A stretch of 13,152 bases of DNA. It comes from Candidatus Eiseniibacteriota bacterium (GTDB lineage Bacteria > Arandabacterota > Arandabacteria > Arandabacterales > Arandabacteraceae). Of this stretch, positions 1 through 13,152 are shown piece by piece (positions within the stretch are counted from its first letter, which is position 1; every line of letters starts with the position of its first letter). The stretch is from contig JAUXGG010000011.1 in NCBI GenBank assembly GCA_030622265.1, positions 1 to 13,152 on the forward strand. The letters run 5' to 3'. The translations under genes and the position numbers were made by a program. The notes under the pieces were generated by a model that saw only the letters and a program-made list of their open reading frames with translations, did not search any database and was not told where the DNA came from.

Positions 1-642
1 AAGGATGAATGCACCGGCTGCACGCTCTGTGTGGCGGAGTGTCCGGGGCTGGCCATCACGCTGGTTGACCTCCGCGCCGAAGGCACCGAGGGTCTGGTCA
101 CGGTCCCCTTCGAACTTCTCAAGAAAGATGTCAATGAGGGAGATGAGGTCGATGCAGTGGACCTGGACGGCAGTACAGTTTGCCGCGGGCGTGTGGAGAG
201 GGTGGCCGGGCGGGCAAGGTATGACAGGACCATCCTGGTCACACTCAGGGTGCCCGCCGATATGGCAACAGCCATAGCGGGTTTCCGTGTCCAGCCGGAG
301 GAGCTCAGCCGACCGGTGGACGATGCCTCGCAAGTCCGGTTGGACGAGGACGATGCCATCATCTGCAGATGCGAGCGGGTGACCGCCGGCCAGATAAGAA
401 AGCTCATCCGGCAGGGGGTGAGAGACCTCAACCAGCTCAAGGTCCTGCGTTGCGGGATGGGTGCCTGTGGGGGTAAGACATGCCAGCCGCTGATCCTCAA
501 GATATTCCGGGAGGAAGGCGTGGACCTGTGCGATGTGATCCCCTTCAGCCAGCGGCCGCTGGTAGCCGAGGTGAATCTGGGCATGCTTGCCGGTGAAGCT
601 GCTGCTGAGGCCGGTGAAGCTGCCGGTGAGGTCGGGGAGTAA
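1..642 (+). CDS. Iron-sulfur subunit of a FAD-dependent amine/amino-acid dehydrogenase, C-terminal part (5' truncated)
   Basis: The reading frame is open from base 1, so the N-terminus lies outside the window; 213 residues are visible. Residues 4-14 form a C-x2-C-x2-C-x3-C-P [4Fe-4S] ferredoxin motif. Residues about 30-95 look like a small beta-rich linker domain. Residues 122-161 carry C-x-C and then CGMGACGGKTC, typical of the BFD-like [2Fe-2S] domain seen in the large subunits of HcnB-like, sarcosine-oxidase-like and dye-linked proline dehydrogenase complexes. In that family an FAD/NAD-binding Rossmann domain usually precedes these clusters, so it may lie in the missing part. The tail is a Gly/Glu/Ala repeat. 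The stop is one base from the start of the DAO-type subunit, so the two are almost certainly co-translated partners that pass electrons from a substrate flavin to an acceptor. The substrate cannot be read from this sequence. Confidence 0.85.
   Translation, partial: KDECTGCTLCVAECPGLAITLVDLRAEGTEGLVTVPFELLKKDVNEGDEVDAVDLDGSTVCRGRVERVAGRARYDRTILVTLRVPADMATAIAGFRVQPEELSRPVDDASQVRLDEDDAIICRCERVTAGQIRKLIRQGVRDLNQLKVLRCGMGACGGKTCQPLILKIFREEGVDLCDVIPFSQRPLVAEVNLGMLAGEAAAEAGEAAGEVGE
589..630 (+). repeat. Short tandem repeat encoding a Gly-Glu-Ala tail
   Basis: GCCGGTGAAGCTGC occurs at 589-602 and again at 610-623, a 21-base period, with a third partial copy (GCCGGTGAG) from 622. The repeat is in frame and encodes the low-complexity Ala/Glu/Gly C-terminus of the iron-sulfur subunit. 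It probably arose by slippage and is likely a flexible tail. No function is visible. Confidence 0.6.
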
Positions 643-643
643 T

Positions 644-1795
644 ATGCAGAACTACGATGTGGTGGTCATCGGCTCGGGAAGCGTGGGGCTCCCGACCGCT
701 TGCTTCCTGGCCCGGGAGAAGGTCAAGGTGCTGGTGATAGATGACCGGCCATCTCCGGGACAGGGCCAGAACAAGACCGCGATCGGCGGGGTACGGGCCA
801 CGCACTCGGACCCGGCCAAGATCCAGACCTGCCAGCTCAGTCTCGAAGTCTTCGGAACCTGGGAAGACCTGTACGGTGATGATATGCACTTCCAGCGGGG
901 CGGCTATTGTTTCCCCGTGTATGAGGAAAAACACGAACAGGCCCTCAAGGCCCTGCTTGTCATCCAGAAGGAGTATGGCCTGAATATCGACTGGGTCGAT
1001 GAGGCCGGAATCAGGGAGCGGCTCCCGGGCATAAACCCGGACGGTCTGCTGGGCGGCACCTTCTCGCCCGAGGACGGGAACCTCTCCCCGATCCTTGCAG
1101 CGAGAGCTTTCTTCAGGCAGGCGCGCGAATTCGGAGCCGAGTTCAAGTTCGCCGAGACCGTGACCGGCCTGGAGACCGGCAACGGCGGCTTCAAGGTCAA
1201 GACCAACAAGGGAGTGTACTCCGCAGGCAAGGTGGTCAATTCGGCAGGGGCCCGGGCGCGTGAGGTAGGCAGAATGATGGGAGTGGAACTTCCCATCGCT
1301 CCCGACTCTCACGAGGGAGGTGTCACCGAACCGGTAGAACCCTTCTTCGAGCCCCTGGTCGTGGACATCCGGGAATTCCCCGGTTCGAAGAACGTCTATT
1401 TCTACCAGGAGAAGCTGGGACACCTCATCTTCTGCCTGACACCGGAGCCCATAATCCCGGGAACGAACCGGGAATCAACCTCTGACTTCCTGCCCCTGGT
1501 GGCGAGGCGGATGGTGAACCTCTTCCCGCGGCTCCGTAACCTGCGGGTGCGCCGGGTATGGCGGGGCCTGTATCCCATGACACCCGACGGGGTTCCCATC
1601 GTCGATCGCGTGAAGGGTAAGGAAGACCTTTATGTCGCCGTCGGATTCTGTGGCCAGGGCCTGATGCTGGGTCCCGGGATCGCCCTCAATCTCGTGAACT
1701 TGATCACCAAGGGGCAGCCTCTGCTTCCAGAGGAGATCTTTAAGAGCTACAGTCTCTACCGGGATTTCAGCCGGGCCTCCGAGACCCTGAAATAG
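644..1795 (+). CDS. FAD-dependent oxidoreductase, DAO family (catalytic subunit of an amine/amino-acid dehydrogenase)
   Basis: The protein has 383 residues. The N-terminal dinucleotide-binding motif GSGSVG is at residues 10-15, with an acidic residue (D33) ending the second strand as expected for the FAD ribose contact. The C-terminal GFCGQGLMLGPG segment (about 334-345) matches the second FAD-contact motif of glycine oxidase, sarcosine oxidase beta and proline dehydrogenase beta relatives, with Gln where many relatives have His. The length is normal for the family. The frame is open upstream to 587, but the start at 644 is chosen because GGGGAG (634-639) lies four bases before it and the Rossmann strand then begins at residue 4. 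It sits one base after the iron-sulfur subunit, so it is probably the substrate-oxidising subunit of a heteromeric dye-linked dehydrogenase. Proline, hydroxyproline, sarcosine or another amine are all possible substrates. Confidence 0.88.
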   Translation: MQNYDVVVIGSGSVGLPTACFLAREKVKVLVIDDRPSPGQGQNKTAIGGVRATHSDPAKIQTCQLSLEVFGTWEDLYGDDMHFQRGGYCFPVYEEKHEQALKALLVIQKEYGLNIDWVDEAGIRERLPGINPDGLLGGTFSPEDGNLSPILAARAFFRQAREFGAEFKFAETVTGLETGNGGFKVKTNKGVYSAGKVVNSAGARAREVGRMMGVELPIAPDSHEGGVTEPVEPFFEPLVVDIREFPGSKNVYFYQEKLGHLIFCLTPEPIIPGTNRESTSDFLPLVARRMVNLFPRLRNLRVRRVWRGLYPMTPDGVPIVDRVKGKEDLYVAVGFCGQGLMLGPGIALNLVNLITKGQPLLPEEIFKSYSLYRDFSRASETLK

Positions 1796-5373: not shown

Positions 5374-7263
5374 ATGTCAATCAGACTTTGTGTCGCCGTC
5401 TTATTCTGTTGTCTCTTATGTTCACTGGCGGCTCTTTCCCCCGCAATCGCCTCAGGCTTTGCCGGTGCGGATTCCCTGGCTATACCGTCGATTGAGACCT
5501 TCATGAAAGTGGGGGGCGCCTCGAAGCCCCAGATAAGCGAAGACGGAAGCCTCATCTTCTTCACCTCCTGGATGTCGGGTGTTACCCAGGTGTACAAGAT
5601 GCTCCCGTCGGGATGGCCTTACCAGCTTACCGTCTTCGATGACGGCATAGACTTCTACCGGGTTTCCTACTCGGGCAAGTGGATGGTGGTGGGCGCGAGC
5701 GTCGGTGGGAGCGAGCAGTCGGATCTATATTTGATTGATACCGAATCGGGCGTCATGACCACGCTTAAGGCAGACGATGATGTAAGGCACGGTTCGGTCG
5801 TATGGAGCCCCGATGAGAAGTATGTCTACTTCAGCGCCAATGAGCCCGATCCAATGTACTTCCTGATCTACAAGATAGACATCGAGGACGGCTCAATAGA
5901 GACCATCTGGGACAAGGAAGGGTGGTCGGCCGCGTCTGATGTCTCGGTGGACGGAAGGTACCTGCTGGTCGATAAGTACGAATCCAATACCAACAACAAC
6001 CTCTGGCTCCTTGACCTCGAAACCGGCAGGGAGACCCTTCTGACCGAACATGAGAGCGACTATACATTCGATTATGCCAGGCTGTCGCACGACGTGGACG
6101 CGGTTTACTGCGTCACCAACAAGAACGATGACGGCATGAAACGTGTTGCCAGGCTGGACGTGGAGAGTGAGAAGATCGACTTCGCGATGGCGGACACTCC
6201 CTGGGAAACCGAGGAGATGGACCTGTCGCGGAACGGGATTTACCTGGTCTGGCTCGAGAACATAGAAGGCTATGGCATGCTCTACGGACGGAACCTGGAG
6301 ACGAACGCCCAGATCGAGATATGCCTGACGCTTGGAGTGCTCTCGGGTTTACAGGTCTCTACGGCGCGCACCATCGTCGCCAGTTTCTCGAGCCCCTCCG
6401 AGGCGCCCGACATATGGGAGTATCATGCGGACACCGGTGAGCTCAGCAAACTGACCTTCTCCACGATGGCGGGAGTTGATCCATCGCTGCTCTCCGACCC
6501 GGAGCTCATCCGATATAAAAGCTTCGACGGACTCGAGATACCCGCCTTTCTCTATCTGCCTGCGGACTATGAGGGAGGCCCGATACCCTTTGTGATCCAC
6601 GCCCATGGCGGCCCGGAAAGCCAGTTCAGGCCGTCGTTCAACAGGCATTTCCAGTATCTGATCCTCAACGGATACGGGATACTCGCGCCCAATATCCGGG
6701 GAAGCAAGGGGTACGGTCGGGAGTTCATCGGGCTCGACGACTACAAGAAGCGCAAGGACTCGGTCTGCGACATTTACGAGGGGGCTATGTGGCTGGTAGA
6801 GAACGGCTACGCCAGGTCCGGTAAGATAGGTATCAAAGGGGGCAGCTATGGCGGGTATATGGCGCTTGCCGCCCTGGTCGATTATCCCGATGTCTTTGGG
6901 GCCGGCATCGACAATGTGGGAATAGCCAACTTCGTTACGTTTCTCAAGAACACCAAGTCTTACCGCCGCGCCATAAGGGAAGCCGAATACGGTCCGCTGA
7001 CCGATGAGGAGTTCCTCAAAGAGATCTCACCCCTGACCCATGCCGACAGAATCAAGGCGCCGCTCTTGATCGTACACGGCGAAAACGACAGCCGCGTGCC
7101 CGTAGGGGAGGCCCGGCAGATCGCCGAGGCCATCGAGGCCAATGGCGGCGTGGTCGAGATGCTGATCTTTCCCGATGAGGGGCACGGGATCTCCAAGATT
7201 AACAACCGGCTGGTCTACTACAGGACGATGGTGGACTTCCTGGACGAGCATCTCAAAGACTGA
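5374..7263 (+). CDS. Exported S9-family serine peptidase (prolyl oligopeptidase / acylaminoacyl peptidase type)
   Basis: The protein has 629 residues. Residues 1-26 form a signal peptide with a hydrophobic core and a likely cut after AIA (24-26), so the enzyme acts outside the cytoplasmic membrane. Residues about 40-365 are WD40/TolB-like beta-propeller blades (motifs such as WSPDEKYVYFSAN and SVDGRYLLVDKY), which in this family restrict access to small peptides. Residues about 375-629 are an alpha/beta-hydrolase domain with the oxyanion HGGP (411-414), nucleophile S491 in GGSYGG, D572 in HGENDSRVP and H604 in DEGHG. The catalytic triad is therefore complete and the length is normal. GGGAGG (5362-5367) six bases before the ATG supports this start. 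It is transcribed alone, divergent from the flavoprotein and convergent with the kinase-like gene. It likely trims peptides for nutrition or turnover; the exact specificity is not visible. Confidence 0.93.
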   Translation: MSIRLCVAVLFCCLLCSLAALSPAIASGFAGADSLAIPSIETFMKVGGASKPQISEDGSLIFFTSWMSGVTQVYKMLPSGWPYQLTVFDDGIDFYRVSYSGKWMVVGASVGGSEQSDLYLIDTESGVMTTLKADDDVRHGSVVWSPDEKYVYFSANEPDPMYFLIYKIDIEDGSIETIWDKEGWSAASDVSVDGRYLLVDKYESNTNNNLWLLDLETGRETLLTEHESDYTFDYARLSHDVDAVYCVTNKNDDGMKRVARLDVESEKIDFAMADTPWETEEMDLSRNGIYLVWLENIEGYGMLYGRNLETNAQIEICLTLGVLSGLQVSTARTIVASFSSPSEAPDIWEYHADTGELSKLTFSTMAGVDPSLLSDPELIRYKSFDGLEIPAFLYLPADYEGGPIPFVIHAHGGPESQFRPSFNRHFQYLILNGYGILAPNIRGSKGYGREFIGLDDYKKRKDSVCDIYEGAMWLVENGYARSGKIGIKGGSYGGYMALAALVDYPDVFGAGIDNVGIANFVTFLKNTKSYRRAIREAEYGPLTDEEFLKEISPLTHADRIKAPLLIVHGENDSRVPVGEARQIAEAIEANGGVVEMLIFPDEGHGISKINNRLVYYRTMVDFLDEHLKD

Positions 7264-7365: not shown

Positions 7366-8364
7366 TCAGCCGGCGCGGAAGTCTGAAGCGACGAGATCCT
7401 CGAATGGGAGTCCTTTCTCTATGCGCTCTCTCCGGCCATCCATATAGCGCTTGCACCAGGGATCATCGAGGTTCTCAACATCGAAGCTCCGGTGGATCAG
7501 AGCATAGAGGTCTATCTCACGCAGCTTCAAGAATGCCGGTATTTCATCCATCCATGCGGTATCGAGGCTGTTCTCCGCGAGATACGCAGGCATGAAGTGT
7601 GAAAGAAACTCCCGGGTGAACTCGCGGGCATTGTCCCTGCCGTTAGCCAGATAGAAGACAGTCATGGCGATGTCGTAGACATACCAGGAATACACGCAGT
7701 CATCGAAGTCGAAGAGGGTTATCCCGCCGTCCTCATCTACCAGGAAATTTCCGCCGTGAGCATCCTGATGTATGAGACCATACCCATCGTGGTCCCCGGG
7801 CAGGTCTCCCAGGTGCTTGCGGAGCTCCCTCCATCTATCAACGACGAGCGGCTCCGAGGCAGGTATGAACCTGTCGATCTCCATCATGTGGGGATCATCC
7901 CACTCCGGCCTTCTCCAGACAGGGTCGGACGGCTCGTAGTTCCTGCTCAGCGCATGCACTCTTCCCAGCATCTTCCCGTAGGTTCTGTATAGGGCGGGAC
8001 TCAAGCCCACCCTCCGGGGCGGCTGTCCTGCAGCCCTTATGAATGCAGTCGCCAGGAACTGACCACCCCGGCCGTCGTCAATTGCCTCAACCAGCGCCTC
8101 GCGTTTGGACAAGACCGCCCGCGCGACCGATGCTCCTCCCCGGGCGAGGTAATTGATCCAGTCGACCTCTCCCTTGATGAGGTTCTCGTTTCTCCTGATA
8201 CTATGGGCGATGCGGAGGATGAATTCGCCGTCATCACGGTCGAACTCATATATGTAGTTCTCGAACCCATCGAGCAACCTGATCCGGCCCGCGTCGATCC
8301 CGTAACGGCTCATTGCCTTTTCAAGGATGGCGTCGCTGTAGCGCTCTCGGATTCTCTCTTCCAT
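7366..8364 (-). CDS. Aminoglycoside-phosphotransferase-fold kinase (SrkA/RdoA-like)
   Basis: The protein has 332 residues and the protein-kinase-like APH fold. LLDGFENYIYEF (30-41) is the nucleotide loop and FILRIAH (48-54) the strand that normally carries the ATP-contacting basic residue, here R51. The catalytic loop is H199-Q-D201-A-H-G-G-N206 (the HxDxxxxN Brenner motif) and the metal-binding DFD is at 219-221. The pattern IHQDAHGGNFL...LFDFDD is closest to the SrkA (RdoA/YihE) stress-kinase type and related small-molecule kinases rather than true antibiotic-resistance enzymes. The substrate could be protein Ser/Thr or a small alcohol such as homoserine or choline. The ATG follows GGGGA with good spacing and lies 25 bases after the metalloprotease gene, so it is probably the last gene of the membrane-cluster operon. 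Confidence 0.85.
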   Translation of the reverse strand: MEERIRERYSDAILEKAMSRYGIDAGRIRLLDGFENYIYEFDRDDGEFILRIAHSIRRNENLIKGEVDWINYLARGGASVARAVLSKREALVEAIDDGRGGQFLATAFIRAAGQPPRRVGLSPALYRTYGKMLGRVHALSRNYEPSDPVWRRPEWDDPHMMEIDRFIPASEPLVVDRWRELRKHLGDLPGDHDGYGLIHQDAHGGNFLVDEDGGITLFDFDDCVYSWYVYDIAMTVFYLANGRDNAREFTREFLSHFMPAYLAENSLDTAWMDEIPAFLKLREIDLYALIHRSFDVENLDDPWCKRYMDGRRERIEKGLPFEDLVASDFRAG

Positions 8365-8389: not shown

Positions 8390-8764
8390 CTACCAGCCGA
8401 TGTTGCGAAGGTCGGGGTCGGAAAGCGAGAAGTGGTGGCCGATCTCGTGAAGCAGGGTCTTGCGGATCTGGGCGTAGACCTGTTCGCGGGTGGAACATAT
8501 CTGCTCGATGTTCTTCTTATACAGGCTTATCTTGTCCGGCATCACGGGCCGGATACCGTAGCGCGAGGTCCGGTACTTGGGGGGGATGCCCTGGTAAAGC
8601 CCCAGGATGAGTCCCCTTGGCTTCATCTTCTTGAGCACGCTGCGGGGCGGGTAGTCCTCGATCACGACATCCACATTATCCATCTTGGACTTGAATTCAT
8701 CCGGTAGGCTTTCCGCGGCGTCGGTAACCACCTGCGCAAATTCATCATCGGGGAGTTCAAACAT
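8390..8764 (-). CDS. Minimal zinc metalloprotease-like protein (MMP-like, HExxHxxxxxD)
   Basis: The protein has 124 residues. The C-terminal HEIGHHFSLSD (106-116) supplies two His ligands (H106, H110), the catalytic Glu (E107) and a third ligand D116, the signature of the predicted minimal metalloprotease-like family (Zincin_1, DUF1025, COG3824). The rest matches that family: an acidic N-terminus, a central VDVVIEDYP strand (31-39), GLILGLYQGIP (51-61) and PDKISLYKKNIE (76-87). The length is normal and there is no signal peptide, so it is cytoplasmic. Its proteolytic activity is, as far as I know, not well established for the family. The ATG is 10 bases after the stop of the six-helix membrane protein, with AGG nine bases ahead. 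This implies co-transcription and possibly processing of a member of the membrane cluster. Confidence 0.88.
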   Translation of the reverse strand: MFELPDDEFAQVVTDAAESLPDEFKSKMDNVDVVIEDYPPRSVLKKMKPRGLILGLYQGIPPKYRTSRYGIRPVMPDKISLYKKNIEQICSTREQVYAQIRKTLLHEIGHHFSLSDPDLRNIGW

Positions 8765-8774
8765 CTTTGAATAC

Positions 8775-9416
8775 CTACTTCAGCACGTGCATCCAGTCTG
8801 ACAAAAGGAAATGAAGGCGGCCGAAGAGAAGCGAGATACGGGCCATTATGGTGTAACCGAAGGAAGCACCAAAAGCTACCATCAGGAAGTAAATCCCTAT
8901 CTTGGAGCTCACCCCGAGGATGCCCTTGTGCTCCTTGGAGAAGAAGAAGTAAGTGATGGTCGTCAGGACACCCACCAGGAGGACGATGTAACCCACGGAG
9001 GTCCAGAAGTCATAGGTGTTGAACATGGCGCCCCTGGTAAAGGGCGAGAAGGTCCCGGCAAGCTGCGGGACCATGTCGCCTTCGACTGCGGCAACGATCT
9101 GGAGGCCGAGGCTGACTCCCAGCACGAATGTGAGCGGGAACCTCACCATCCAGGACGTGCGGCGGCTCAGCTGCGTGAACATCATCAATCCCATGGCTAT
9201 CGGGATGATGTTCCAGTAATTACCCTGGGCAAGCGGCTCGAAGAGGTTGGGATAAGCATAATTCCACCAGAGGAACGCGGCCCAGTAGCCGGCGGAGAGA
9301 CCGACGAAGATATACTCGGCCATCTTGTATACGGGATTGTCCTTGTAGAGGAAGCTGTAGATGGCCAGGGTGAGTAGTCCCGCTACCCATACCCATGGAC
9401 CGGTGGTCATCAACAT
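8775..9416 (-). CDS. Six-helix membrane protein of the DUF6754-linked cluster, function unknown
   Basis: The protein has 213 residues and predicted membrane helices at about 8-24, 35-52, 69-82, 93-111, 137-158 and 173-195. A loop at 112-135 is the largest non-membrane part. Conserved-looking motifs are YKDNPVYKMAEYIFVGLSAGY (split across helix 2) and ARISLLFGRLHFLLSDW near the C-terminus. No transporter or enzyme signature is recognisable. The start at 9416 is three bases after the stop of the preceding gene, and a purine-rich GGAGGAAGG inside that gene's end serves as ribosome binding site, so translation is probably coupled. With the 207-residue six-helix protein two genes upstream it could form a heterodimeric membrane core. 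Confidence 0.8.
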   Translation of the reverse strand: MLMTTGPWVWVAGLLTLAIYSFLYKDNPVYKMAEYIFVGLSAGYWAAFLWWNYAYPNLFEPLAQGNYWNIIPIAMGLMMFTQLSRRTSWMVRFPLTFVLGVSLGLQIVAAVEGDMVPQLAGTFSPFTRGAMFNTYDFWTSVGYIVLLVGVLTTITYFFFSKEHKGILGVSSKIGIYFLMVAFGASFGYTIMARISLLFGRLHFLLSDWMHVLK

Positions 9417-9419
9417 GAT

Positions 9420-10247
9420 CTAAGCCTTCCTCCGCTTTTCCGCCCAGTAGACTATGTTACCGAGGATCACGAACCCGATTATGAGAAGATGCGCGACCGA
9501 CTGGGAATCCATGCCCGTCGTGGCAAGCCCCATGTGATCGACAAGGCGTTCATACTCCGCAGAGCCCTTCATGCCCCCGACGAGACCCACGAGCTGTCCG
9601 GTCTGGAGATACTGGTAATAACGTGGGGCGCCGATGGCCGTCTGCGCGGTGGCGAGGTTGCCCTGGTAGCGGGCATGATAGTACCAGATCCACTGGTCGC
9701 TCCCGGGTACTCCCATGGACATCGACAGGACCAGTCCGATATCATTGGCCGCTTTCACGTCATCCATCATCGGGAGCTCCTCGACTGAGGTACCATAGAT
9801 GTCCTGCCGGCACACGTCATGTATGTCCCGGCCGAGATTGACCAGGGTCACCGCACCACCCGGCTTGTATCCGAAGTTAACGAAGTCCACGCCATATTCC
9901 CTATTGAACTCGCCGACGCCCACCTCGTCCAGGGCCTGCACTCCCAGGGGCACGCCCGGAGCCCAGAGGCCCAGCATGAGCACCTTCAAGTCACGCCTGA
10001 AACAGTGGCGCAGTATCGAAAGCGTGGCGGGCTGAAGCTCGGGAGCTCCGGATGGATCATAGTCGATGGACATCATTACCACCGATCCCTCGCTCAAGCC
10101 CTCGATCACGTCGTAGAGCTGCTGGACGGGTGGTGTTACCTCGATAGGCAGACCCAGCGGGAAGAAAAGCGGCAGGATCACGGCGAGCGCGACGGTAAGA
10201 AAGATTATCCGCCGGTCGAGCCTGCCTATTTTCTCAATAAAGTCCAA
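9420..10247 (-). CDS. Membrane-anchored protein with a large extracytoplasmic alpha/beta domain, DUF6754-linked cluster
   Basis: The protein has 275 residues. A positively charged N-terminus (GRLDRR) precedes a membrane helix at 14-33; a second helix at 250-269 ends in KRRKA, so both ends are cytoplasmic and residues about 34-249 lie outside. This domain looks alpha/beta: strand VVMMSIDYD (56-64), helix (71-85), strand LKVLMLGLW (87-95), YGVDFVNFGYKPG (118-130) and a late glycine-rich GLVGGMKGSAEYE (221-233). The start is TTG at 10245-10247, supported by AGGAG (10254-10258) six bases upstream and by the position of the first helix. It is 26 bases after the upstream gene and 3 bases before the downstream one. 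I recognise this protein only as a companion of DUF6754-type proteins. It may be distantly related to the DUF6754-like protein in the same cluster. Confidence 0.78.
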   Translation of the reverse strand: MDFIEKIGRLDRRIIFLTVALAVILPLFFPLGLPIEVTPPVQQLYDVIEGLSEGSVVMMSIDYDPSGAPELQPATLSILRHCFRRDLKVLMLGLWAPGVPLGVQALDEVGVGEFNREYGVDFVNFGYKPGGAVTLVNLGRDIHDVCRQDIYGTSVEELPMMDDVKAANDIGLVLSMSMGVPGSDQWIWYYHARYQGNLATAQTAIGAPRYYQYLQTGQLVGLVGGMKGSAEYERLVDHMGLATTGMDSQSVAHLLIIGFVILGNIVYWAEKRRKA

Positions 10248-10253
10248 GTACCG

Positions 10254-10258
10254 CTCCT
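10254..10258 (-). promoter_or_regulatory. Ribosome binding site deciding a TTG start
   Basis: On the minus strand AGGAG lies six bases before TTG (10247-10245). The next in-frame ATG would lie far inside the protein, past the first membrane helix, so the TTG is needed for a complete protein. Confidence 0.7.
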
Positions 10259-10273
10259 ATCTACATACCACTT

Positions 10274-10897
10274 CTATTGCATGTAGGATCTCTCGATCCC
10301 GAGTATCATTCTTAAGGCCATCGATATCAGGCCCAGGTCAATGCCCAGCCTGATTCCGCGCTTGGCGGCGGCGTTGGGATAGCTCATGATCCACTCGGTA
10401 ACATCGGGAAAGCCCTTCCAGATGCTGGTCCCCACAGGGACCCGTCCCAACATTATCAAGACCGCGGCCAGCAGAAGCACCAGCGCCTGGGTGTTCCTTG
10501 CCCTGAAGGCCCTGAAGGAGGCCGAAGTGACGAAGAAGGCCAGCAGGGAATACATGGTGGCCTCAAGCGGGAACTGTACATTGAAGTAGAGATACATGAA
10601 GGGGCTGCCCTCATCCAGGCTCGCGCGTCCCTTGAAGAAGCCGGCAAAAAGCATTACGCCAAGAGCGGCGATGAGGATGATGGAGTATTGCCAGTCCCGG
10701 GCCTTGGTCTTGATTCTTTCCCCGTTCACCCGGACCAGGTTAAAGGTTCCGAGGAAGATGAAGAATGTGATGATCCCTATGTACCAGTTCCGGAAGGTCT
10801 GATTGAGGTCGGCGATCGGCTTGGCCGGCACGAAGCTGGTCACGATGGTGAAAAGCCCCATTATCAGGATTATGGCAAGAGGTATCTGCAGTCTCAT
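10274..10897 (-). CDS. Six-helix membrane protein (second polytopic subunit) of the DUF6754-linked cluster
   Basis: With the chosen ATG the protein has 207 residues and helices at about 4-22, 38-56, 70-87, 112-131, 137-152 and 183-199. Loops contain GRASLDEGSPFMYLYFN (90-106) and PVGTSIWKGFPDVTEWI (154-170); the tail LRMILGIERSYMQ is distinctive. The frame is open to a GTG at 10972, which would add 25 residues rich in Arg and His. The ATG at 10897 is preferred because GAGG lies eight bases upstream and it begins directly at the first helix. That leaves 90 bases without a gene after the DUF6754-like stop; the GTG start would cut this gap to 15. No known family could be named. Together with the 213-residue protein it gives the cluster two six-helix subunits. 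Confidence 0.75.
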   Translation of the reverse strand: MRLQIPLAIILIMGLFTIVTSFVPAKPIADLNQTFRNWYIGIITFFIFLGTFNLVRVNGERIKTKARDWQYSIILIAALGVMLFAGFFKGRASLDEGSPFMYLYFNVQFPLEATMYSLLAFFVTSASFRAFRARNTQALVLLLAAVLIMLGRVPVGTSIWKGFPDVTEWIMSYPNAAAKRGIRLGIDLGLISMALRMILGIERSYMQ

Positions 10898-10987
10898 GCC
10901 GCAAGCCTCGTTTCGGTATGCACAACGGTATCCGACATGCTTCCGATGCGTGCCATGCCGGGGATCCGCCACCCTGTATCCGGTCGT

Positions 10988-12223
10988 CTATCCAATTGAA
11001 AGCCACTCCTCGATAGCGTCGATTCCGGCAAGCTTCAGGATCACGCCCACCACAATCAGCACAAAGAAGATTGCCTTGGCCGCATCCTGGCCTCTTATGC
11101 TCCCCATCTGAATCGGGTCGCCGGAGAGCGAAGCGCCCGCCGCGTAGAGTTCCTCTCCGATCAAGGTATAGTCACACGCCACGACGAAGAAGGGCAGCTG
11201 GTCGATCTCTGCGGTTCCGGCGATCTGGATCGCCCCGGTCGCGTAACCGGTTTCGGCGAAAACCAGCGACTCGGCGTAAAAAGCCCCGAGATAGAAATTG
11301 GCCGCAGGCCGGTCGCGCATCATTATCCCGTCCACGCCGGCCACATAGCCGAACTGGTCCGTGGTCAGATAGTAAATGTCGTCTTCATTGTATTCATCAG
11401 GCCGTCCCATACGCAGGTAACTTTCCTTGACGGTCTCGCGGGCCATGCTCATGGCCATCGGCCAGATACAGGGGATGTTCAGCTTGGTCCCGTAGGAGGC
11501 TGTTCGCTCGGCCACCCGCGCCAGGATGTTCATGCTTGCCACGGTCTGGGGGTCATCCACATCGAGACCGCCCATGATGTAGAGCACATCCTTTCCCATC
11601 TCAGTCGCACGGCCTATCGCCTCATCGATGGCGTCAAAAACCGGCAGTCTCCGGAGGAAGGTCTCACCCTTGCTGCGTTTGGCGATCTCTATGAAGATGA
11701 TAACAAGGAAGCAGGTGAGAAGCGTAAACACCAGCACGTTCCACCGGTTGCGGTCGAACCACTGCATGCGGCTGTAACCGGGCCCGCAAGCTTCACTCGC
11801 GGTCTCCGAATCGACCCCGACAGCCTTCACCTTGTACCAGTAGGGCTTGCCCGGCTCTGTACCATCATCGCTGTAGCTTGCCGTCCCGGCCGGTACCGTT
11901 CCCACCCTGACGAATTCGCTGTCGGGCGATTCTGCACGCATCACGTGATACTTGACAACACTGCCTGGGATGATGGACTCGGAAGCCGAGATGTGCCAGG
12001 CCACGTCGATGCTTGTGCCTGCGTCACTCGGAGTGTCCTCGAGCGATACCTTCTCCGGGGCAGACAGAATCTCCCCGGGGACGATTTGGTTGAGGAGTTG
12101 AGTTAGGGCTCGATCCAGGCTGTCCTGCGGGGCGGCATCCTCAGCCGGCGCCATATCCTGTGCCAGAACCGGCAGGGCGCAGAGGAGGAGTGAGGCCATG
12201 AGGGTCCAGGCCCCCAGCATCAT
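10988..12223 (-). CDS. DUF6754-like membrane protein with an N-terminal FN3-like domain
   Basis: The protein has 411 residues. A signal peptide (about 5-21, cut after VLA) is followed by an FN3-like module (about 54-148) with the typical SVVKYHVMRAE and KPYWYKVKAVG strands. A membrane helix (162-180) ends in the basic AKRSKGETFLRR, which places residues about 181-382 in the cytoplasm, and a second helix spans 383-400. The cytoplasmic region (EAIGRATEMGKDVLYI, then AAFYAES-type, GAIQIAGTAEIDQLPFFV, ACDYTLIGEELYAA, GSIRGQDAAK) matches what I remember of DUF6754. No enzyme signature is visible. The ATG at 12223 has GGAG seven bases upstream; a second ATG follows directly. It is the first gene of the membrane cluster and lies 93 bases after the transketolase gene. 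It could transmit an outside signal or load to a cytoplasmic domain, but no function is known to me. Confidence 0.78.
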   Translation of the reverse strand: MMLGAWTLMASLLLCALPVLAQDMAPAEDAAPQDSLDRALTQLLNQIVPGEILSAPEKVSLEDTPSDAGTSIDVAWHISASESIIPGSVVKYHVMRAESPDSEFVRVGTVPAGTASYSDDGTEPGKPYWYKVKAVGVDSETASEACGPGYSRMQWFDRNRWNVLVFTLLTCFLVIIFIEIAKRSKGETFLRRLPVFDAIDEAIGRATEMGKDVLYIMGGLDVDDPQTVASMNILARVAERTASYGTKLNIPCIWPMAMSMARETVKESYLRMGRPDEYNEDDIYYLTTDQFGYVAGVDGIMMRDRPAANFYLGAFYAESLVFAETGYATGAIQIAGTAEIDQLPFFVVACDYTLIGEELYAAGASLSGDPIQMGSIRGQDAAKAIFFVLIVVGVILKLAGIDAIEEWLSIG

Positions 12224-12316: not shown

Positions 12317-13152
12317 CTACCTGGCCCCTTTGGCCGCGCCGGTACTCTTACCGGCAAGATCGTAGAGCTCCTTGGCCTTGGCTGCTATGTGCTCCGCGCT
12401 GACCTCGAATTCCTTGACCAGCTCCCACGGGGCGCCGCTCTCGCCGAACCTGTCCTTGACGCCGATCATTCCCATGATGATACTCTTCTCATGGAGTTCC
12501 CGGGCCTGGGCCACAACCGCGGCCACGAGGTTCCCCATTCCTCCAACCTGGTGTTCCTCGGCGGTTATGACGATACCCGTCTCGAGGGCGGCCTTGATGA
12601 TCGCCTCTTTATCCATGGGCTTCACGGTATGCATATTAACAACGCGGGTCTCTATTCCGTGCTCCTCCTTGAGGATGTACGCAGCCCTCATGGCCTCGCA
12701 CACGCTGGGCCCGCAGGCTATTACGGTCAAGTCCTCATTCTCGGACTCATACTCTGAGGCGAGTTTGGTCTCGAAAGCATCGATGAACTGATCCTGCTCG
12801 CCGCGGTAGCGTACCACATTGGCCTCCCCGAACTTCCAGGGAGTGTCGAGCGTGGTCACTATCGGGGTGGCCTCCCGCGCGAACCTGATGTACTTGGGGC
12901 CCTTCACCTGGAAGAGCAGGTACTCCGAGGCACGCCGGGTCTCGACAAAGTCACAGGGAGCCGCCACCGTCATGCCGGGAAGCCCGCACATCTGGAAGAA
13001 CTCTTCCAGGGCCTGGTGGGTCGCACCGTCGGGTCCCACGGACACACCGCCGTGTGCGCCGGCTATCAAGACATTATGGTTGCCGTAGCACACCGTGGTC
13101 CTCAGCTGGTCCAGGTTTCTGCCGGAGGCGAATACTCCGTAAGTCCCGAAGA
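12317..13152 (-). CDS. Transketolase family protein, C-terminal subunit (5' end outside window)
   Basis: The frame is open to the window edge, with 277 residues visible; about 30-40 N-terminal residues are missing if it is a usual split subunit of about 310-320. The visible part begins FGTYGVFASGRNLDQLRTT, then AHGGVSVGPDGATHQALEE, matching the thiamine-diphosphate pyrimidine-binding domain of transketolases (compare GVGEDGPTHQ with its conserved His), followed by the C-terminal transketolase domain with VIACGPSVCEA, VVNMHTVKPMD and AEEHQVGGMG. Bacteria and archaea that split transketolase encode the N-terminal half as a separate gene, expected just upstream, outside the window. The role is two-carbon transfer between sugar phosphates in the non-oxidative pentose phosphate pathway; DXS and dehydrogenase E1-beta relatives are less likely from the motifs. 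It is in line with the membrane cluster 93 bases downstream; the link may be only positional. Confidence 0.93.
   Translation of the reverse strand, partial: FGTYGVFASGRNLDQLRTTVCYGNHNVLIAGAHGGVSVGPDGATHQALEEFFQMCGLPGMTVAAPCDFVETRRASEYLLFQVKGPKYIRFAREATPIVTTLDTPWKFGEANVVRYRGEQDQFIDAFETKLASEYESENEDLTVIACGPSVCEAMRAAYILKEEHGIETRVVNMHTVKPMDKEAIIKAALETGIVITAEEHQVGGMGNLVAAVVAQARELHEKSIIMGMIGVKDRFGESGAPWELVKEFEVSAEHIAAKAKELYDLAGKSTGAAKGAR

Follow-up and report, generated by a model that had tools for sequence, protein, structure and literature searches.

The described systems closest to the one reported here are GlmL/MutL (PF13941), the methylaspartate mutase accessory protein; RnfC and NqrA of Rnf/Nqr-type ion or electron transfer; and the ECF transporters, which use ABC ATPases and in which one energizing unit is shared by several membrane modules. 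The system in question was recognized from four genes, A, B, C and D, in a 13,152-nt stretch of DNA (the window, which is contig C228 of a 2.29-Mb Candidatus Eiseniibacteriota draft genome, 73.8% complete), together with three further genes, S, E and F, that accompany them in other genomes. E resembles GlmL/MutL, with PF13941 scores of 431 bits (locus L028) and 388 bits (L041) against a Pfam cutoff of 27, and it keeps the stretches DCGSTTTK, DIGGATTD and GSGGVLSH, which we take to be ASKHA nucleotide motifs; as judged from these likenesses, E is a divergent GlmL/MutL-type ASKHA protein of a putative ATPase type. However, it scored below the NCBIfam cutoffs for GlmL proper (230.5 versus 475 for the L028 protein), Or-4 (216.5 versus 600) and the GlmL family (170.7 versus 204.05), and unlike GlmL it is linked to a membrane cassette. 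F carries an RnfC_N barrel-sandwich domain (33.4 bits versus a cutoff of 25.6) along with further domains, but this N-terminal domain is all that it shares with RnfC and NqrA, the rest of F being unlike either. The likeness to ECF transporters lies in the way of working suggested by copy numbers and not in any shared sequence family, and no ABC ATPase family was recognized in A to D, S, E or F. These proteins and a Zincin-type peptidase encoded beside the cassette gave no match to the PADLOC defense models at an E value of ≤0.01. The literature covered, which lacked most subscription journals so that mentions may be in print elsewhere, held no mention of DUF6754 (the family matched by A) or PF13941, nothing relevant-looking on GlmL/MutL, aminomutase reactivation or gene neighborhoods, and nothing on the combination of DUF4388, roadblock, ExbB, FN3 and Zixibacteria. 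We regard A to D as a conserved bacterial envelope module, undescribed in the literature covered, with a distribution that closely follows that of the separate pair E and F.

The tight minus-strand succession of the four genes, on which the original prediction was built, is real, with its coordinates confirmed (Table 1) and gaps of 90, 26 and 3 nt between A and B, B and C, and C and D, respectively. An alternative GTG start of B at 10972 would reduce the first gap to 15 nt, but relatives of B align starting at the ATG at 10897. To assess the order elsewhere, genome contigs were searched with an alignment of A, which matched at least 583 stretches, at least 577 of them relatives, and all stop-to-stop open reading frames (ORFs) were read around each copy of A with at least 2.7 kb downstream. 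Two locus sets were used, the first being the best 80 of the matched loci, so that it leans towards closer relatives, and the second comprising 26 loci and the window; the sets share at least one locus, as L046 and L025 appear to be one contig of 611,679 bases. A was followed by B, C and D on the same strand in 89 of the 93 testable copies of the first set (20 copies too near a contig end were left out), and the order was kept in 21 of 23 in the second (3 left out). The misses were two solo copies of A in the second set (L014 and L026) and, in the first, a solo A (L067), a third copy (L116) and two loci with masked stretches (L070 and L075). Record titles in the first set named Zixibacteria, Latescibacterota, WOR-3, TA06, Edwardsbacteria, Coatesbacteria, Stahlbacteria, Cloacimonadota, Planctomycetota, Eisenbacteria, Poribacteria, Fermentibacteria, Aegiribacteria and Acidobacteriota, carriers thus spanning about a dozen phylum-level names, some of which may be nested. 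No DUF6754 was found in 14 well-known control genomes, and no viral relatives were confirmed.

The cassette also occurs in tandem, both doubled and tripled. Across 84 complete cassettes (L046 and L025 entering separately), the pairwise distances of A to D were correlated at r = 0.75 to 0.86; re-pairing proteins within one genome or locus lowered the mean r to 0.51 to 0.59, and for each of the six protein pairs the observed r was reached by 0 of 500 shuffles. A to D are inherited as one unit. The check proposed with the original prediction, conservation of the four genes as neighbors across phyla, was therefore passed, and with homologs that are not scattered the single envelope complex it envisaged is likely.

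The original prediction had also considered a transporter without an obvious ATPase, which holds for the window only, where neither E nor F adjoins the cassette. Elsewhere, the small helical protein S, E and F precede A in many genomes. E or F was found in the flanks of 29 of the 80 loci in the first set, 22 of which read (S)(E)F-A-B-C-D by position, while most of the others have E, or E and F, upstream on the other strand; a Gimesia metagenome-assembled genome (L076) has the full S-E-F-A-B-C-D run. The association extends beyond linkage. Among 212 genomes, A and C were each present in 60, 59 of which had both, and strong F matches occurred in 57 of the 60 A-positive genomes and in 0 of the 152 A-negative ones (the F search counts 58 genomes, the additional one being a weak match in G037, E value of 3.5e-8). 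In only 23 genomes did F lie within 3 kb of A, which means that the co-occurrence is not accounted for by linkage. E matched in 64 genomes, of which 54 were counted as strong, 53 A-positive and 1 A-negative (G094); weak E matches in six more A-negative genomes (E values of 1e-57 to 5e-39) were taken for other GlmL kin. The Fisher P value of 1e-48 is inflated by genome kinship; the 60 carriers span 56 genera. Since strong F is confined to A-positive genomes and often unlinked, A to D probably belong to a single envelope system that has an ATPase-type partner of its own, and we hold with considerable confidence that A to D and E-F form one system. Omp85, found in 197 of the 212 genomes, was uninformative on an outer-membrane link; the A carriers lacking it (G067 and G208) both have a very divergent A.

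Copy numbers differ between the two halves. Of the 60 carriers, 31 have between two and seven DUF6754 matches, some of which are fragments at the ends of contigs, whereas F was found once per genome at or near full length, further matches being pieces or a fused form, and E was nearly always single. The genome of the window has six copies of A, with E and most of an F located on contig C356, while C414 carries the end of an F ahead of its A; the ends of the two contigs share a 280-nt overlap at 95%, and the two pieces of F may therefore belong to one gene. Together, these numbers suggest that several ABCD modules share a single E-F unit. Contact between E and F is supported by single polypeptides that contain both, in L125 (894-3932), L126 (6237-9095), L127 (5878-8925), L128 (7132-10089) and L129 (1439-4081). 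These fused proteins are of 881 to 1015 amino acids (aa), those of L125 to L128 being 952 to 1015 aa and that of L129 reaching the contig end. They look like an undescribed regulator family and agree with a possible regulatory role for E-F.

A matched DUF6754 (PF20539) at 372.5 bits against a Pfam cutoff of 27 (E value of 1e-111). Its ectodomain, approximately residues 50 to 155, scored below the cutoff of the FN3 sequence profile (13.1 versus 25 bits), but it was assigned the FN3 fold, and a sequence search of solved structures gave FN3 matches. Mean identity over 107 sequences was 29% in the FN3 region versus 63% in DUF6754, and the stretch preceding the GRATEMG motif varied from 44 to 724 residues among 122 A ORFs, for which longest-ORF starts were used and some of which are cut by contig ends. 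A fast-evolving FN3 region beside a constant DUF6754 domain is in keeping with an external part for recognition that varies and an internal part for docking that does not. B and D each have six main hydrophobic peaks, bearing out their description as six-helix proteins, and have opposite orientations by charge. The charge pattern likewise agrees with the topology originally proposed, in which FN3 and the domain of C would lie outside and the DUF6754 domain in the cytoplasm. Strongly conserved polar residues lie in or beside the transmembrane (TM) helices (His253 and Asn264 of C, Arg193 of D, Arg129 and Glu202 of B) and may fit conduction or gating. The predicted structure of C was of high confidence (predicted local distance difference test score [pLDDT] of 95.9, predicted template modeling score [pTM] of 0.91), and the models of A and C have an alike order of elements. 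This likeness is only suggestive, as hhalign found no significant match between A and C, nor did it between B and D. Sequence searches of solved structures gave none for B or D (E value of ≤10) or for E (E value of ≤1), two weak matches for C (best E value of 0.21) and only weak matches for F (best 0.06).

We therefore propose, tentatively and at rather less than even confidence for the whole, that a membrane complex of A to D works with E-F in ATP-regulated transport or assembly. A, B, C and D would together form a single complex in the cytoplasmic membrane and so make up the membrane half of the system, and E and F, with S, its soluble half, a single E-F unit serving every ABCD complex of a cell (one to seven per genome). 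E-F would bind the cytoplasmic DUF6754 domain of A, which ATP binding and hydrolysis by E would switch; the change would be relayed by a core of B and D to two outer parts, the domain of C and the fast-evolving A ectodomain, whereby a paralog-specific substrate may be moved or assembled. A bolder version, which we consider doubtful, is that the system represents an ATP-driven envelope machine of a new class, its single soluble E-F engine serving paralogous modules that each have inverted pseudosymmetry. The inverted pairs, suggestive only, would be the alpha/beta domains of A and C, each set between two TM helices but one facing in and the other out, and the oppositely oriented B and D. If E does drive A to D, then a membrane machine would be powered by an ATPase of the ASKHA type, which we know of in no described transporter. 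The fixed order over so many phylum-level names, with up to seven copies per genome, makes it likely that the module matters in the envelopes of mostly uncultured bacteria, and tying four orphan families to an ATPase-type partner opens their function to testing, for which a cultured Planctomycete would be one choice, provided that a carrier among these is confirmed.

Several observations weigh against this proposal. Strong F is missing from three of the 60 A-positive genomes (G037, G065 and G084) and strong E from seven, with no E in G014, G065 and G084, a weaker E in G037, G067 and G208, and a piece before F in G184; G186, conversely, has two full-length copies of E. A stands without B-C-D in L026 (8125-9246), L067 (9431-10564), L056 (5543-6733) and L014 (511-1644). 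Transport families were all below cutoff for B and D, the TMD0_ABC match of B, for example, scoring 15.5 against 27. The two strongest objections concern E. It is closest not to any pump but to GlmL, which by its name is accessory to a B12 enzyme, and the E-F fusion of L127 (1015 aa) has an HTH_3 domain in front, an arrangement that fits a sensor at least as well. This fusion and the likeness of E to an accessory protein favor a sensory or repair role.

In the first of these alternatives, the ectodomain of A and C would bind outside signals, B and D would relay them, and a nucleotide-dependent E-F switch would alter expression or enzyme activity. The HTH_3 fusion, which we find reminiscent of ROK regulators, points this way, as do the rapid variation of the FN3 ectodomain and the DUF4388 protein and roadblock-like proteins (labeled by eye) encoded after D in L045, L081 and L111. 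A simple sensor, however, would need less than two polytopic proteins in which polar TM residues are conserved, and the fused E-F genes had no ABCD adjoining them in the loci read, so we regard sensing as an unlikely though serious contender. Less is to be said for envelope quality control or cofactor repair, which we judge improbable, in which E would act as a GlmL- or Hsp70-like reactivase remodeling A to D or a client, perhaps with peptidases. E does fall within the GlmL superfamily, and a Zincin metallopeptidase follows the window copy, but E is below all three GlmL-type cutoffs given above and the peptidase recurs only in L030, from another genus of the same family, at the same position, being absent beside the other cassettes examined; it is at most an accessory of the window copy. 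In L075, A seemed to be fused to an S49 peptidase, but this reading crosses a masked stretch and was dropped.

An Rnf/Nqr-type ion or electron transfer complex, with F in the place of RnfC/NqrA, B and D as the paired six-TM subunits and C as the outer subunit, is very improbable. The RnfC_N domain of F and the opposite orientations of B and D recall such a complex, but F is far below the RnfC (22.6 versus 245.95) and NqrA (16.2 versus 321.05) cutoffs, no redox family was recognized in A to D, and no alignment column of B or D has Cys at ≥40%, whereas conserved cysteines are expected in the two six-TM subunits of Rnf/Nqr. That the four genes merely travel together with no shared complex, as the solo copies of A might hint, is highly unlikely given the fixed order, the coevolution and tandem duplication of whole cassettes, and the co-occurrence with unlinked F.

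Table 1. Genes of the cassette and its surroundings in the window
Feature	Position	Strand	Description
A	10988-12223	minus	411 aa; signal peptide, FN3 ectodomain, TM helix, DUF6754 domain, C-terminal TM helix
B	10274-10897	minus	Six-TM protein, 207 aa counted from ATG; no Pfam match above cutoff
C	9420-10247	minus	275 aa; alpha/beta domain flanked by two TM helices; TTG start; no Pfam match
D	8775-9416	minus	Six-TM protein, 213 aa; no Pfam match above cutoff
Zincin_1 metallopeptidase	8390-8764	minus	Pfam E value of 8e-27; 10 nt after D
APH-family kinase	7366-8364		Continues the run after Zincin_1
Transketolase, C-terminal part	12317-13093		Upstream of A
S9 prolyl oligopeptidase	5374-7263	plus	Signal-peptide-like start
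Oxidoreductase	587-1795		Resembles sarcosine-oxidase-type FAD oxidoreductases; left end of the window

In a scan of the window, promoter-like sites numbered 6 (2.6 expected), including one at the start of B (10897-10869), and terminator-like sites 3 (3.5 expected); no inference was drawn from these. An S9 prolyl oligopeptidase-like gene adjoins the same cassette in L030 too.

Neighboring genes were clustered from picked ORFs, and since the picker lost some genes in G+C-rich loci, the clusters include antisense ORFs. The families recurring within 6 kb were ExbB/TolQ (11 loci), a GcvP subunit (9 loci), and a lipoate ligase, a bPH-like protein, a TonB-dependent receptor, ExbD and TonB (8 loci each), many of the loci coming from related genomes. 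Pfam backs one example each of ExbB, TonB, the TonB-dependent receptor and GcvP; the bPH match is below the Pfam cutoff, and the remaining labels were assigned by eye. These neighbors do not agree on any single substrate. ExbB, ExbD and TonB-like genes with a TonB-dependent receptor gene lie downstream of D in L045, L081, L111, L100 and L120, which represent several lineages, and a lipoate-ligase-like gene does so in L028 and L015. Genes for glycine decarboxylase subunits and the bPH-like protein were found upstream of E, ahead of S-E-F, in L028, L092, L100 and L142.

Some divergent arrangements were also observed. The solo A of L026, L056 and L067 adjoins two genes for FAD oxidoreductases that look of the sarcosine-oxidase type, similar to the one at the left end of the window. 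A B-C fusion in L141 was dropped, its extra N terminus not matching B. In L138 (8079-10199, genome G067, one of those without an Omp85 match), C is extended at its N terminus by a long stretch of DVPDWLR-like repeats and is followed by D and E. Locus L139 (G100) holds a very divergent cluster of S-like, B-like, C and D genes with no recognizable A, which may represent a second branch of the system.

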